Positions 28,023 through 32,889 of a stretch of 38,518 nt of DNA are shown here, piece after piece. A program made the position numbers and the translations under genes. The stretch is from a virus. Every line of letters begins with the position of its first letter. Within the stretch, counting starts at the first letter, position 1. Below the pieces are notes generated by a model, which did no database searches, was not told the origin of the DNA, and saw nothing but the letters and a program-made list of their open reading frames with translations. Where the stretch lies: positions 1 through 38,518 of IMG/VR virus record IMGVR_UViG_3300036857_000274. The stretch is one strand, 5' to 3'.

Positions 28023-29393
28023 CTAGTTCGTGCCGGTCGGCTGACCCGCCGGCGGGAGTTCAGGGGTCGGGGTCGGCCGCGCGCCGTCAGCTGCGCTCGG
28101 CGGTCGCTGCGGCAGGCCGAGCAGCGTCTTCCAGCGCTCGATCTGCTGCGGGCTTGCGCCCCAGCGCTCCCAGAGCGCTTCCAGCGGCACGCCCAGCGCG
28201 CGCATCTTCTGCAGCGCATCGACGAGCTCGCCCTCGCTGCGGCTCTCGGGGTCGGCCCAGATCGTCTCGGCGTTCGAGGCAGTCGCGCGGGCGTCGTCGC
28301 CCCGGTAGGCGAACGCGAGCCGCATCGCTTCCTCCCACGTCTCGCCGAAGGTGACCTGCTTGCGCTTGACCTTCGCGACCAGGCCCGTCTCGGTCGCCTT
28401 CAACGACTCGCCGCTCGGGAAGTTGCCCGACGAGCCGAGCAGGTAGTGCGGCGGCGTGCGCGTCTGCGCGGCGACGTGCTGGATCAGCATCTCGATCTCG
28501 CGCACGTAGGCCTCGCCGCCCGCCTCGGGCAGCTGCCCGAACTGGACGTCCTTGTCCTCGGCGACCCACATCCGCGACACGCTCGACAGGAAGTGCTCGC
28601 GGTCGAGCGCGCGACCCGTCTCGGGGTCGGTCGGGATTTCGAGGCCGGTCGCGTAGCGCTGCGGGAAGGCGACGTACTCGCTGTTGACGAGCAGGTCGCT
28701 CAGCAGCTTATTGATCGCGTCCTGCAGCGGGACGACGACGTTCAGGTCGCTGACGCCGGTGCCGAGGATCGTCGGGTTGTTGAGCATCGGCACGACCGGC
28801 ACGACGCCGATCGAGTTCTCGACCGGCTCGCCCGCGTTCTGCCAGTGCTCGTCCTCGCCCCGGCGCAGCAGCGGGTAGAACGCCTCGGGCGTGTAGAGGA
28901 TCGCGAGCGCGTCCTCGCCCTCGGCCCAGCGCTTGAGCGCGGCGACGCGCCGCCGCCGGTCGTCGGGCGCGTGCGCGGTGATCACCTGCGCCGGATGCTC
29001 GACGGTGATCCTCGGCGTCTCGGGGTCGTCGCCAGGCGTGACGAGCACGTAGGCGATGCCCGATTTGCAGGCTTCGGTGTGCGCGAGCGCCGAGTCGGCG
29101 TCGAGGTAGTTCGCCTGCCAGAGTGCCCACGCCTCCTTGTCGGCCTCGTCGCCCTCGGGGCCGAAGCGAAAGCCCTCGACCTTCAAGCGCTCGACGCTCG
29201 CATCGACGACCAGCTGCGACCAGTTGTCGGCGAGCTCGCGGAACAGCGCGCCGAACGTCTCGCGCCACTTCGAGGTCGCGAACGCGATCCGGTGCACGCC
29301 GAGGTAGTAGGCGTCGTACTGCTCGACCGCCGGAAGCCGGTTGTCGAGCGCCGCGTCGAGCGCAGCTGCTTGCTCTGCCGGTGTCGGAGGCAT
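28023..29393 (-). CDS. Portal protein (SPP1 gp6-like), 456 aa
   Basis: Forms the dodecameric DNA gate. N-terminus LPAVEQYDAYYLGVHRIAFA, then FRELADNWSQLVVDASVERL and FRFGPEGDEADKEAWALWQA. Middle part VPLQDAINKLLSDLLVNSEY, FPQRYATGLEIP, then ETGLVAKVKRKQVTFGETWE. It ends with a Pro-rich tail. This is the SPP1-type portal block order. The ATG at 29393 overlaps the terminase stop. Confidence 0.93.
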   Translation of the reverse strand: MPPTPAEQAAALDAALDNRLPAVEQYDAYYLGVHRIAFATSKWRETFGALFRELADNWSQLVVDASVERLKVEGFRFGPEGDEADKEAWALWQANYLDADSALAHTEACKSGIAYVLVTPGDDPETPRITVEHPAQVITAHAPDDRRRRVAALKRWAEGEDALAILYTPEAFYPLLRRGEDEHWQNAGEPVENSIGVVPVVPMLNNPTILGTGVSDLNVVVPLQDAINKLLSDLLVNSEYVAFPQRYATGLEIPTDPETGRALDREHFLSSVSRMWVAEDKDVQFGQLPEAGGEAYVREIEMLIQHVAAQTRTPPHYLLGSSGNFPSGESLKATETGLVAKVKRKQVTFGETWEEAMRLAFAYRGDDARATASNAETIWADPESRSEGELVDALQKMRALGVPLEALWERWGASPQQIERWKTLLGLPQRPPSAADGARPTPTPELPPAGQPTGTN

Positions 29394-30841
29394 CAGAAGC
29401 TCATCACCCGCTTTCGCTTGACGTCGAGCGCGCCCTCGGCGACCGCGTCGCAGCGCGCCTCGTAGGCGAGCACCGCCGCGACGGCGGCGTCGATCTTGTC
29501 CGGGGACCCGTCGTAGTTCTTCGTCAGCCAGTAGCCGCCGCGCGCCTCGCGTATCTGCGCGTTCAAGACGTGCCGGGTCAGCGTCGCATCGCCGCCCTGC
29601 GGGATGCGACCCGCGACGAGATCGGTACGGAAGCGCTCGACCGCGCCCATCATCCGCGCGCGGTTGGTCGGGTAGCGCATCACCGCGAGGTCGCCGAACT
29701 CGCGCGCCCAGCCGTCGATCTCGGACTGCCAGAGCGGCGGGTCGAAGTAGCCGCGCGCGACTCGGTAGACCTCCATCACCTCGGCGAGCACGCGATCGAC
29801 TGCGCCACCGGGCACCTCCCAGTCGTGCCCGCCGGCGGGCGACTCCCAGACGCCGAGCGGCTGCAGCAGCGCGTCGCGCAGACGACAGCCGACGAGCGCG
29901 GTCGCGTCACCGAAGCGCGAGCCGTCGAAGCCGAGCGCGATCTGATCGCCGCGCTCGAAGGCCTCGTCGATCTCGCAGGCCTGCCAGTCCTCGCCCTTGA
30001 CCCACCAGGCCTCGGCCCCGATCCACATCCCGCAGGCGAAGCGCGCCCACTGCCAGGGCAGCATCGAGGGCGAGTTGTGCCGCTGCGCGAGCAGTTCGAC
30101 CGTCTGCCAACTCGCCGGGTTCACCTGCTTGACGACCGCCATGTCGTCTACGTCGTCGCTCTCGTCGAGCGACCACTCGTGCAGCGCGTAGGACTGGTCG
30201 CCCGCGAGCGCGTGCAGGTAGCGACCCTTGCGCTCCTGCGGCAGCTTGCGCGCAGCGGCGCGCATCAGCCCGAGCGGCGACTGCTCGTGCGCGCCTGCGG
30301 TGCTGATCGTGATCATCTGGCCGTCGCGCGGACCGAGGCCGTCACGGAAGACGCCGTAGAGGTCAGCCGAGCGGTGGCGGTGGAGCTCATCGACGAGCGC
30401 GAGCGTCGGGATCACGCCGTCGGCGGTATCGACGTCGGCAGCGAGCACGCGGATGCGCCCGGCGTCGCGCTTCGAGCGAATCTCGCGGTAGCCGCGCTTC
30501 GGATCGACGCGCTCCTGCAGACCTGGCGACCGGCGGATGAAGCCGACGGCCTGGTCGTAGAGGATCGTCGCCTGATCTCGGCTGGCGGCGCCGAGCACGC
30601 ACTCGGCGTCGGGCGTCACGATCAGGTGGTAGAGCGCGAGCGCTGCGAGCAGCGTCGTCTTGCCGTTCTTCTTCGAGAGCAGCACGAGCGTTTCGCGCAC
30701 GCCGTCGAAGTAGTCGGCGAGCAGCTGCCGCTGGAACGGCTCGAGCTCCATCGCGCCGCCCGCTTCGAGCTCAAGGGCGGCGCAGAAGCGTGCGAAGGCG
30801 GCAAGCTCATGTGCGGCGTCGTGCTCTGCGCTTGTCGGCAA
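29393..30841 (-). CDS. terL: Terminase large subunit, 482 aa
   Basis: ATP-driven DNA packaging motor with nuclease. Walker A LSKKNGKT is at residues 55-62, Walker B LALVDE near 147-152 with the catalytic Glu152, and a coupling segment ITISTAGAH near 178-185. The RNase-H-like nuclease begins IALGFDGSRFGDATALVG (Asp306) and continues with RGYFDPPLW and a late SPDKIDAAVAAVLAY acidic site. Length is normal. The start is TTG at 30841, supported by GCGGAGGT about 8 nt upstream, and it overlaps the small subunit gene by 35 nt. Confidence 0.95.
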   Translation of the reverse strand: MPTSAEHDAAHELAAFARFCAALELEAGGAMELEPFQRQLLADYFDGVRETLVLLSKKNGKTTLLAALALYHLIVTPDAECVLGAASRDQATILYDQAVGFIRRSPGLQERVDPKRGYREIRSKRDAGRIRVLAADVDTADGVIPTLALVDELHRHRSADLYGVFRDGLGPRDGQMITISTAGAHEQSPLGLMRAAARKLPQERKGRYLHALAGDQSYALHEWSLDESDDVDDMAVVKQVNPASWQTVELLAQRHNSPSMLPWQWARFACGMWIGAEAWWVKGEDWQACEIDEAFERGDQIALGFDGSRFGDATALVGCRLRDALLQPLGVWESPAGGHDWEVPGGAVDRVLAEVMEVYRVARGYFDPPLWQSEIDGWAREFGDLAVMRYPTNRARMMGAVERFRTDLVAGRIPQGGDATLTRHVLNAQIREARGGYWLTKNYDGSPDKIDAAVAAVLAYEARCDAVAEGALDVKRKRVMSF

Positions 30842-31343
30842 GTTCGTCTACCTCCGCGAAGGGGTCGGGTGTGCTCGGGGTCGCGGTCGCGTCCTCGTCT
30901 GGCTCTCGCCGACGGGCCTCGGGTCGCCCCCAGCGCTCGGGCGCGCTGCGTTCGAGCAGCCAGGCGGCGGCGCGCCAGTCTTCGGCGGCGGCGCGGGCGA
31001 TCTGCGCGACGTTGCGCGCCTCGCCCTCGGCGCGTGCCTGCTCGATGCGAGCGCGCATCGCGCGGAAGGGCGCATCGGCAAGCGCGTCGCTCCCGCCGCG
31101 CCGCCACCATTCGTAGAACGTCCGGCGCGGGACCCCCGCAGCGGCGAGCGCGACGTTCATGAACGTGCCCGCGCTGACGAGCTTCGCGATGTTCGCGATC
31201 GTCTGCTCGTCGAGCGTCGCCTCGCGCCCGTGGGCACGGCCGAGGTGGGTCGCGCAGAGCGTGCCGCCGCGCATCGCCCACGAGCGGCAGGCCTCGCCGC
31301 TGGCGCTCGTCGCGGCGCAGGGTCGCTTCGGGTATTCAGGCAT
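30807..31343 (-). CDS. terS: Terminase small subunit, 178 aa
   Basis: Start taken at the ATG at 31343 (MPEYPKRPC). The N-terminus has a Cys/His motif (CAATSASGEACRSWAMRGG, TLCATHLGR). A helix-turn-helix follows (IANIAKLVSAGTFMNVALAA, AGVPRRTFYEWWRRG), then a helical oligomerisation region (IEQARAEGEARNVAQIARAA; AWLLERSAPERWGRPEARR). This recognises the packaging site on phage DNA. The ATG lies 3 nt after the tRNA-like element and inside the mom 3' end; an in-frame start at 31409 would run through that element. Confidence 0.85.
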   Translation of the reverse strand: MPEYPKRPCAATSASGEACRSWAMRGGTLCATHLGRAHGREATLDEQTIANIAKLVSAGTFMNVALAAAGVPRRTFYEWWRRGGSDALADAPFRAMRARIEQARAEGEARNVAQIARAAAEDWRAAAWLLERSAPERWGRPEARRREPDEDATATPSTPDPFAEVDELADKRRARRRT

Positions 31344-32034
31344 GAAGCGCCGGGGTCGGGATCGAACCGCCGCCTCGCGACAGGACGTCGCGCGTGCCAC
31401 CTGCAGCACTTCCGGCGCGGGGGTAGGGCTGGGCGAAGGGGAGCAGCTGCCGACTCATCGCCCGGTCGAGCGGCATCAGGTAGCGGTGCTTGCCCGCGAG
31501 CTCGACGACGCGACACTCGTCCGGGCGCAGCGCGTTGCGCTGAGTGCCGTACTGCACGACCCGACCGCTGACGCTGATCTGTCGTTCGTGCCAGCGCCGA
31601 CCGACGCCGTCGATGTACTCGCGGCCCGAGGGCGTGCGCCCGAAGTAGAGCCAGCCGCCCGCCTGGTAGAGCGTCCCGAGGTGGCCGACGTTCGGGTCAG
31701 CGAAGCTGACGACGAGCCGCAGGCCGGGGTTCGAGCGGCGCAGCATCTTGAGCGCGATCGCGACGATCCGGCTGGTCGGCGTCTCGTGCGAATCGAGCGC
31801 GACCCGCGTCAGTTCGCAGCACTGCTGCTGCGTCAGGCCGTAGGGCTTGCCGAGGTTGCGCGTCGAGCCTCGTGAGAAGACGACCACGCCGACGAAGCGC
31901 TCGTGCTCCCAGACGCCGACCCGCACCTGCGGCGGGGTCGGCACGCGCCGCGAGTAGTGCCAGCGCAGGCAGGCGGCGCGCATCGCCGCGTAGCTCGCCC
32001 AGTCGAGTCTCAGGGCGTCCACGTGTGGCCGCAC
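31336..32034 (-). CDS. mom: Mom-like DNA modification protein, 232 aa
   Basis: Resembles the phage Mu Mom family, a GNAT-like fold that adds a carbamoylmethyl-type group to adenine and protects DNA from restriction. Seen: MRAACLRWHYSRRVPTPPQV, VGVWEHERFVGVVVFSRGST, ELTRVALDSHETPTSRIVAI, then the hallmark VVSFADPNVGHLGTLYQAGG and WLYFGRTPSGREYIDG. After KHRYLMPLDRAM there is a 50-residue tail ending RGGGSIPTPALHA. The tail codons coincide with a tRNA-like fold (31347-31418). GTG at 32034 or GTG at 32022 are both possible starts, overlapping the ParB-like gene. Terminase genes follow directly. Confidence 0.88.
   Translation of the reverse strand: MRPHVDALRLDWASYAAMRAACLRWHYSRRVPTPPQVRVGVWEHERFVGVVVFSRGSTRNLGKPYGLTQQQCCELTRVALDSHETPTSRIVAIALKMLRRSNPGLRLVVSFADPNVGHLGTLYQAGGWLYFGRTPSGREYIDGVGRRWHERQISVSGRVVQYGTQRNALRPDECRVVELAGKHRYLMPLDRAMSRQLLPFAQPYPRAGSAAGGTRDVLSRGGGSIPTPALHA
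31347..31418 (-). tRNA. tRNA-like element, 72 nt, inside the 3' end of mom
   Basis: On the minus strand GCGCCGG pairs perfectly with CCGGCGC (7-bp acceptor stem). GTGC/GCAC forms a D stem around a GG-containing loop, and CGCGA/TCGCG forms a 5-bp anticodon stem. GGCGG-TTCGATC-CCGAC is a T arm with a canonical TTCGATC loop. Faults: no T at position 8, a G where T33 is expected (loop CGTCCTG, anticodon would be TCC), one T-stem mismatch, one extra C before the acceptor stem, and no encoded CCA. It is either a degenerate phage tRNA, an RNA regulatory or packaging element, or a tRNA-mimic. Confidence 0.4.
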
Positions 32035-32501
32035 TCGGGGCAGGTCAGGTGCCCGTCGAGCGCTCCCTGCTCGTCGCCGGCGACCGGCTCGAAGTCGGTC
32101 GAGAGCGACTGCACGAGCGAGTCGAGCGCGAGTCGGTCGAAGCCGGTCCCGTCGAGGTCGGGCAGCGAGTCGAGCAGATCGACGAGTGCCTGCGGGTCGT
32201 ACTCGGCGACGTCGCTCGCGCGGTTGTCGATCAGGGCGATCCGCGCGGCGGTGTCTTCGTCTACATCGACGAAGGTCGCGGCGATCTCGTCCCAGCCGAG
32301 CTCGCGTGCGGCCTGCAGGGTGTGGTTCCCGGCGAGCACTTCGTTCGTGCGCCGGTTGACGACGATCGGGCGGTACTGGCCGTGACGGCGCAGCGAGTTC
32401 TTGAGCAGTTCGAGCGAGCCTCGGCGCGGGTTGCGCGGGTAGAGAACGAGCGCGTCGGTCGGCACGCGCAGCTGCTCAAGGGTGGCGGCGATCTCGCTCA
32501 A
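32010..32501 (-). CDS. ParB-domain protein with C-terminal zinc ribbon end, 163 aa
   Basis: Stand-alone ParB-like N-terminal domain: ALVLYPRNPRRGSLELLKNS, YRPIVVNRRTNEVLAGNHTL, QAARELGWDEIAATFVDVDE, ARIALIDNRASDVAEY. The G-N-H-T box replaces the classic G-E-R-R and is typical of phage versions that sit with DNA modification genes. The end CPECGHTW is half of a ribbon. The only start near the domain is TTG at 32501, with AAAGGA upstream, in TTGA overlap with the -1 frame of the HNH gene. It probably guides or supports the adjacent Mom protein, but this is from position only. Confidence 0.85.
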   Translation of the reverse strand: MSEIAATLEQLRVPTDALVLYPRNPRRGSLELLKNSLRRHGQYRPIVVNRRTNEVLAGNHTLQAARELGWDEIAATFVDVDEDTAARIALIDNRASDVAEYDPQALVDLLDSLPDLDGTGFDRLALDSLVQSLSTDFEPVAGDEQGALDGHLTCPECGHTWTP

Positions 32502-32889
32502 GTCCGGGCGGTCCTTTCCACGTGGAGTTTTTTTCGCGAAAAGAGCGCGTGCCTGCGCGCACACCCTCCGCGCGCCGGTGCCCCCCCTCCCGGCGCCCGG
32601 TCGCCTCGGCGGAGGTCTTGCGCCGATGGCAGTCCGGGCAGAGCAGCCAGAGGTTCGAGCGCTCGTCGCTGCCGCCCTCGACCAGCGGCAGGCGATGATC
32701 GACCGCGCCCTCGCCGCGCGCGACAGCTGCGCCGCACTGCTCGCAGCGATCACGCGCCTCGGCCCGCACCCGTGCAGCGAGACGACGAAAGGCGTGCGAG
32801 CTCTGACGCCAGGGGTGCTCACGACAGCGGCCACGTCGCACCGCTGCTCGACGGCAGCCGGGGGCACTGCAGAGCGTCAGCGCTCGCAT
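32476..32889 (-). CDS. HNH endonuclease, 137 aa (zero frame)
   Basis: N-terminal Cys/His cluster (LCSAPGCRRAAVRRGRCREH). The HNH core is CEQCGA, then VDHRLPLVEGGSDERSNLWL with the catalytic His-His/Asn, then CPDCHRRKTSAE. HNH proteins next to terminases often take part in packaging cleavage. The ATG at 32889 is solid. After Lys120 the gene runs through seven A residues (REKN); zero frame ends at 32476, 26 nt inside the ParB-domain gene, while the -1 frame ends in TTGA exactly at its start. Confidence 0.9.
   Translation of the reverse strand: MRALTLCSAPGCRRAAVRRGRCREHPWRQSSHAFRRLAARVRAEARDRCEQCGAAVARGEGAVDHRLPLVEGGSDERSNLWLLCPDCHRRKTSAEATGRREGGHRRAEGVRAGTRSFREKNSTWKGPPGLERDRRHP
32528..32534 (-). 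other. Candidate -1 slippery tract A-AAA-AAC in the HNH gene
   Basis: Minus-strand codons are GAA AAA AAC, so the heptamer A AAA AAC is in phase for a -1 slip. The -1 product would add about nine residues (LHVERTART) and stop at 32498-32500, overlapping the TTG start at 32501. This reproduces the 4-nt NTGA coupling used elsewhere in the operon. Confidence 0.5.

Follow-up and report, generated by a model that had tools for sequence, protein, structure and literature searches.

A putative glycine-donor tRNA superimposed on the 3′ end of phage mom genes

What is a tRNA-shaped fold doing in the last codons of a phage DNA modification gene? The window analyzed here, a virus record of 38.5 kb, carries a mom gene, and an earlier note on its sequence had pointed to a near-cloverleaf at the 3′ end of that gene, with perfect acceptor, D and anticodon stems and a TTCGATC T-loop, from which T8 and T33 are missing. 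All of this is found in the sequence (Table 1): position 8 is A, position 33 is G, and the TTC of the T-loop is present. The element begins within codon 206 (Arg) of mom, directly after the PYP motif; its base 76 doubles as the A that opens the terS start codon ATG (31343), and the mom stop codon (31336-31338) lies beyond its 3′ end. ARAGORN made a single call in the 38.5 kb, a tRNA-Gly(TCC) at 31346-31418 on the minus strand. The identity set of bacterial GlyRS, which consists of G1-C72, C2-G71, U73, C35, and C36, is complete in this copy. In the T-stem an A bulges out of the 3′ strand (GGCGG / CCG-A-CC), and positions 74-76 read TCA, not CCA, so that a CCA-adding enzyme would be needed. The bulged A, the glycine identity and the match of glycine to the chemistry of Mom were all absent from the earlier note.

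Table 1. Positions of the tRNA-Gly-like element, its parts and the neighboring genes in the window.
Feature	Position	Strand	Details
Portal gene	28023-29393	minus	
terL	29393-30841	minus	
terS	30807..31343	minus	PHROG 4102 terminase small subunit, 6.5e-28; shares one base with the element
mom-terS tRNA-Gly-like element	31343..31418	minus	72-nt body plus positions 73-76; ARAGORN and held-out covariance model
Acceptor stem, 5′ strand GCGCCGG	31412..31418	minus	Pairs with 31347-31353; perfect 7 bp; from sequence
D-arm, perfect 4-bp stem GTGC/GCAC	31394..31409	minus	D-stem covaries in relatives
Anticodon arm, perfect 5-bp stem CGCGA/TCGCG, loop CGTCCTG	31376..31392	minus	5/5 stem pairs covary
Anticodon TCC	31383-31385	minus	Within loop CGTCCTG
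T-arm GGCGG-TTCGATC-CCGACC	31354..31371	minus	Bulged A at 31356
Acceptor 3′ strand CCGGCGC, U73 (31346), then TCA	31343..31353	minus	TCA replaces CCA
mom, Mom-family DNA modification GNAT	31336..32034	minus	Pfam Mom, 1.7e-40
ParB_N-domain protein, directly upstream of mom	32010..32867	minus	Pfam PF02195, 2.1e-9

Taken singly, the sequence is weak evidence, because its folding energy is unremarkable (z -0.72) and the Rfam tRNA model did not report the element in the window even at E 10. Once relatives are compared, the fold at 31343-31418 is far beyond chance. Covariance model R3, built from other phages without the window, places the element at the same coordinates with 76.7 bits (E 2.3e-17), and its next-best match in the window scores 13.5 bits.

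Mom homologues were collected from viral contigs, isolated phages and bacterial genomes. ARAGORN found a tRNA-Gly(TCC) at the equivalent place in loci L025 and L037-L039, which share only 42-44% Mom protein identity with the window, and the same T-arm and T-CCA end recurred in the Mom tails or the DNA of other homologues, in differing reading frames. A structure-only scan was then applied to ~390 nt around the mom stop, using pairing criteria alone (a 7-bp acceptor, an anticodon arm with a 7-nt loop, and a T-arm with or without one bulge) and no sequence rule. It located an element in 119 of 174 mom loci; 109 of these elements combine U73 with an NCC anticodon, and 93 have CCA as well. In a control set of 1998 windows elsewhere in these loci, there were 108 matches, seven of which had U73 and NCC, and at least two of these seven are themselves mom-associated (L171, after a second mom copy, and L239, just upstream of mom). 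Covariance models recovered the element in many loci that the scan script had missed. The 174 loci are partly non-independent, and they reduce to 61 non-redundant elements at 85% identity, or 57 once four chance matches are removed.

In 21 D-armed elements, 98.9% of cells were paired and both-side changes occurred in 16 of 21 pairs, giving a covariation score of 0.623, where shuffles reached 0.162 and sliding no more than 0.146. The figures for 22 D-armless elements were 97.8% of cells paired, both-side changes in 12 of 17 pairs, and a score of 0.586 as against 0.157. Acceptor pairs 4-7 covary in relatives, as do all pairs of the anticodon stem, although covariation in the acceptor, anticodon and T-stems is there partly by construction because the scan selects for pairing in them. 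The D-stem, the anticodon letters, U73, CCA, and the bulge base were free of that selection, and in the D-stem 94% of cells were paired, with three of four pairs changing on both sides. Covariation and a conserved cloverleaf at homologous mom junctions, which the earlier note had made the test of the fold, are thus strongly in evidence, the fold in the 109 loci and the covariation in D-armed and D-armless forms alike.

The bases that have been kept, and those that have not, point to what the RNA is for. Among the 57 non-redundant elements, the GCG/CGC start of the acceptor (G1-C72, C2-G71, G3-C70) and U73 are each found in 56, while C35C36 (NCC) was scored in 52 by the script and in all 57 after inspection of five wrongly chosen anticodon arms. 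CCA is encoded in 43. Decoding and the geometry of the tRNA core require U33, U8, the TTC loop, and a regular T-stem. These are poorly kept, with U33 in 24/57, U8 in 7/57, the TTC loop in 15/57, and a T-stem bulged by some base in 55/57, by an A in 54. Position 34 is variable (U 31, A 17, C 8, and G 1 among the 57, with arms as chosen by the script), and the whole D-arm is absent from many elements. Because the GlyRS identity bases are kept while decoding features are lost, selection appears to act on glycine charging rather than on decoding. The earlier suspicion that this would be a poor tRNA for translation was well founded.

An ordinary phage elongator tRNA-Gly, supplementing host translation and lying by mom through coincidence, would agree with the anticodons, all of which are Gly, and with the canonical or near-canonical tRNA-Gly found beside mom in Microbacterium and Arthrobacter phages. 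It is nevertheless highly improbable in view of the losses just listed, the many D-armless elements, the frequent A34, and the strong linkage to mom. All tRNAs called and named by ARAGORN within ~100 nt of mom ends are tRNA-Gly, and an annotated tRNA-Gly adjoins mom in isolated phages, for example in Salinibacter phage B2_17, where it stands among unnamed genes. In most of the host genomes checked, covariance model R1 matched the host's own tRNA-Gly (UCC or CCC) genes best. The element shares with these bacterial tRNAs the cloverleaf, the GCG...CGC acceptor, U73, the NCC anticodon, and CCA; in contrast to them it has not kept U33, U8, or the TTC loop, has a bulged A in the T-stem, allows A34, has often lost the D-arm, and is embedded in a coding gene.

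That embedding raises the matter of whether RNA or protein is conserved. In 47 elements inside the mom ORF, the 3′ half falls in one frame 34 times and in the other two frames 8 and 5 times; six more elements span the mom stop and three lie wholly downstream. Because all three frames of mom are represented among the elements, it is the RNA that is conserved and not the peptide tail. The earlier note had considered a Mom-tail motif (GGGSIPTPALH) kept through RNA structure, which did not survive the finding of three frames and of copies outside the ORF. The stronger version, in which this C-terminal peptide is what is conserved and the fold is its by-product, accords with the majority frame, but the minority frames and the elements at or beyond the stop, the stems that change on both sides, and the ending of Mu Mom just before the tail make it next to impossible, and the frame evidence refutes it.

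The protein itself has the Mom GNAT fold and the conserved motifs HYS, ELxR, SFAD, and PYP. Its predicted core (pLDDT 95.2) matches the crystal structure of Mu Mom, 8bv8, over residues 5-206 (Z 20.3, rmsd 2.9, 175 aligned). This fold extends to about codon 206, beyond which the remaining 26 codons overlie the tRNA. Since Mu Mom terminates at QPYPK, the point where the window element begins, and since the match to 8bv8 spans residues 5-206, the final 26 codons of the window mom are best seen as a read-through tRNA. Beyond Mom, the structure matches were generic GNATs, with no aminoacyl-tRNA-dependent transferases among the matches listed, which tells neither for nor against a relation to them.

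The usual order in the loci tested is mom-element-terminase. No terminase appears among the listed neighbors of mom and its tRNA in Microbacterium phage Dropshot, where the element is on the other strand, or in Arthrobacter phages Timinator and Wyborn. Conversely, 62 loci selected for terS gave a single strong match, in L081, which itself bears mom, and the others reached at most 25 bits. The element is linked to mom, not to terminase. This bears on two functions that had been proposed earlier. One is a packaging (cos/pac) signal or an attachment-site remnant of a tRNA gene, a reading prompted by the proximity of terS and by the frequent use of tRNA 3′ ends as attB sites; it is hardly credible, as conservation extends over the entire tRNA, 5′ half included, and takes the form of covariation, not of identity. 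It was rejected because the element follows mom away from the terminase and is absent from the mom-less loci among the 62 selected for terS. The other is a tRNA mimic that acts as a processing signal only, cut by RNase P or RNase Z so that the mom and terminase messages are separated. A position between these genes, in the window as in most loci tested, would suit such a role, as would a good acceptor/T stack, which is what RNase P reads. Cutting may well happen, but mere punctuation is improbable: the conservation of C35C36, U73, and CCA would go unexplained, the element stays with mom where the terminase does not follow, and it can sit on the opposite strand (Dropshot) or upstream of mom (L239). 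Because punctuation would need neither GlyRS identity bases nor CCA, cutting would rather be the maturation of a tRNA-Gly.

A tRNA-shaped RNA is under selection here, with the nucleotides that GlyRS reads, and is linked to mom. It recurs across distantly related phages, at or next to the 3′ end of most mom genes in a large Mom clade. What it is for can be stated with good though not full confidence: the element is probably a phage-encoded, non-ribosomal tRNA-Gly that overlies the 3′ end of mom, is reserved for DNA modification and serves as glycine donor to Mom. RNase P would excise it from the mom-terS transcript by a cut at G1, 3′ trimming and CCA addition would follow in the window copy, in which CCA is not encoded, and the host GlyRS would charge the excised RNA with glycine. 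The charged RNA would be kept from the ribosome by the loss of U33, of U8, and of the regular T-stem, the part of a tRNA that EF-Tu binds. To judge from the bulge, avoidance of EF-Tu would spare the glycyl-tRNA for Mom. Mom would transfer glycine from the charged tRNA to adenine N6, and a rearrangement would then produce the same glycinamide adduct as in phage Mu. Such an acyl transfer with intramolecular rearrangement would be chemically economical, because N6-glycyl-adenine and the glycinamide adduct are isomers. Excision would also remove the mom stop codon, and a given transcript would therefore be the source of either the tRNA or full-length Mom, but not of the two together.

The idea of a charged-tRNA donor for Mom is not new; a 2023 preprint by Silva et al., going by its title, reportedly has Mom of the phage Mu system use a charged tRNA. 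The Mu Mom product has been named as alpha-N-(9-beta-D-2'-deoxyribofuranosylpurin-6-yl)glycinamide (Swinton, 1983, cited in PMC3874153). Published proposals for the donor include glycyl-CoA, a 2021 paper having assumed an acyl-CoA of this kind (PMC7824862), and the elements add independent, evolutionary evidence on the donor's identity. In the literature searched there was no paper linking phage tRNA-Gly to mom, although the Silva et al. preprint may mention phage tRNA-Gly.

Against a dedicated donor stand the TCA of the window copy in place of CCA, the loss of the stop codon from the mom message upon excision, and the Mom phages that have no adjacent element. In the Mom tree, elements are spread across one well-supported clade (50 of 61 rows) and occur in addition in L239 and with the Mu-like Mom of Psychrobacter phage Y8A. 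At least eight changes each are needed on starred branches for the D-armed and D-less labels, which differ even between the close sisters L002 and L003. Cases without an element cluster in Pseudonocardiaceae and in the Mom subfamilies of Mu, ICP1, and Enterococcus phages, and are also seen in Yersinia. Mu and the other Mom subfamilies have no element at mom, with the exception of Y8A, and models R1 and R3 found no match in the Mu genome. Because Mu, these subfamilies and certain members of the clade itself (Yersinia, Pseudonocardiaceae) do without one, an adjacent element is not required by Mom as such, and element-less Mom phages presumably use host tRNA-Gly.

The dedicated-donor reading places the window close to the Mu system, with a homologous Mom of the same fold and the invariant Ser of the SFAD motif; the difference is that Mu presumably draws on the host tRNA-Gly, whereas here the phage supplies its own. 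In staphylococcal peptidoglycan synthesis, non-ribosomal tRNA-Gly is diverted from translation as glycine donor. The likeness is a functional analogy, with no homology claimed, and those tRNAs are cellular genes whose acceptor is a cell-wall peptide; they are not known to have lost the D-arm or to have a T-stem bulge. Mitochondria also have cloverleaves without a D-arm, but these decode, whereas the elements described here are viral or bacterial. Some phage tRNA-Gly genes beside mom have already been annotated, without comment. What appears to be new is a family of degenerate, often D-armless, T-bulged tRNA-Gly embedded in mom in three frames. On the dedicated-donor reading, many phages bring their own donor tRNA, in a cryptic family missed by the Rfam tRNA model in the window and mostly by ARAGORN at mom loci. 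With charging identity kept and decoding features shed, the family is a natural experiment in how the parts of a tRNA are divided among its partners. More tentatively, and at a little short of an even chance, the elements may constitute a widespread viral class of EF-Tu-evading, non-ribosomal glycine tRNAs, with bulged T-stems and repeatedly D-armless, that reside inside the gene of the enzyme using them, each transcript giving Mom or its substrate tRNA and so a built-in balance of enzyme and donor.

Several loci depart from the usual arrangement. Tandem mom genes occur in L171 (716-2092) and L024 (4636-5893), and each L171 copy is followed by an element with equal model score. In a Dehalococcoidales genome (L239, 2894-2969), a tRNA-Gly-like element lies upstream of mom. 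Two tandem D-armless elements stand between mom and terS in Psychrobacter phage Y8A (L116, 3117-3257), whose publication reported no tRNA genes (PMC10434257). As in the window, a ParB-like gene lies immediately upstream of mom in Microbacterium, Arthrobacter, and Psychrobacter phages (L108, L110, L116); ParB-mom-tRNA may be a recurrent cassette, with the ParB_N protein a possible partner. In the whole genomes of 15 phages, a model match was found in five, four of them at mom. The fifth, a weaker match of 34.6 bits far from mom in Corynebacterium phage Darwin (W13; NC_042086.1, 42335-42409), is possibly an ordinary tRNA-Gly gene.
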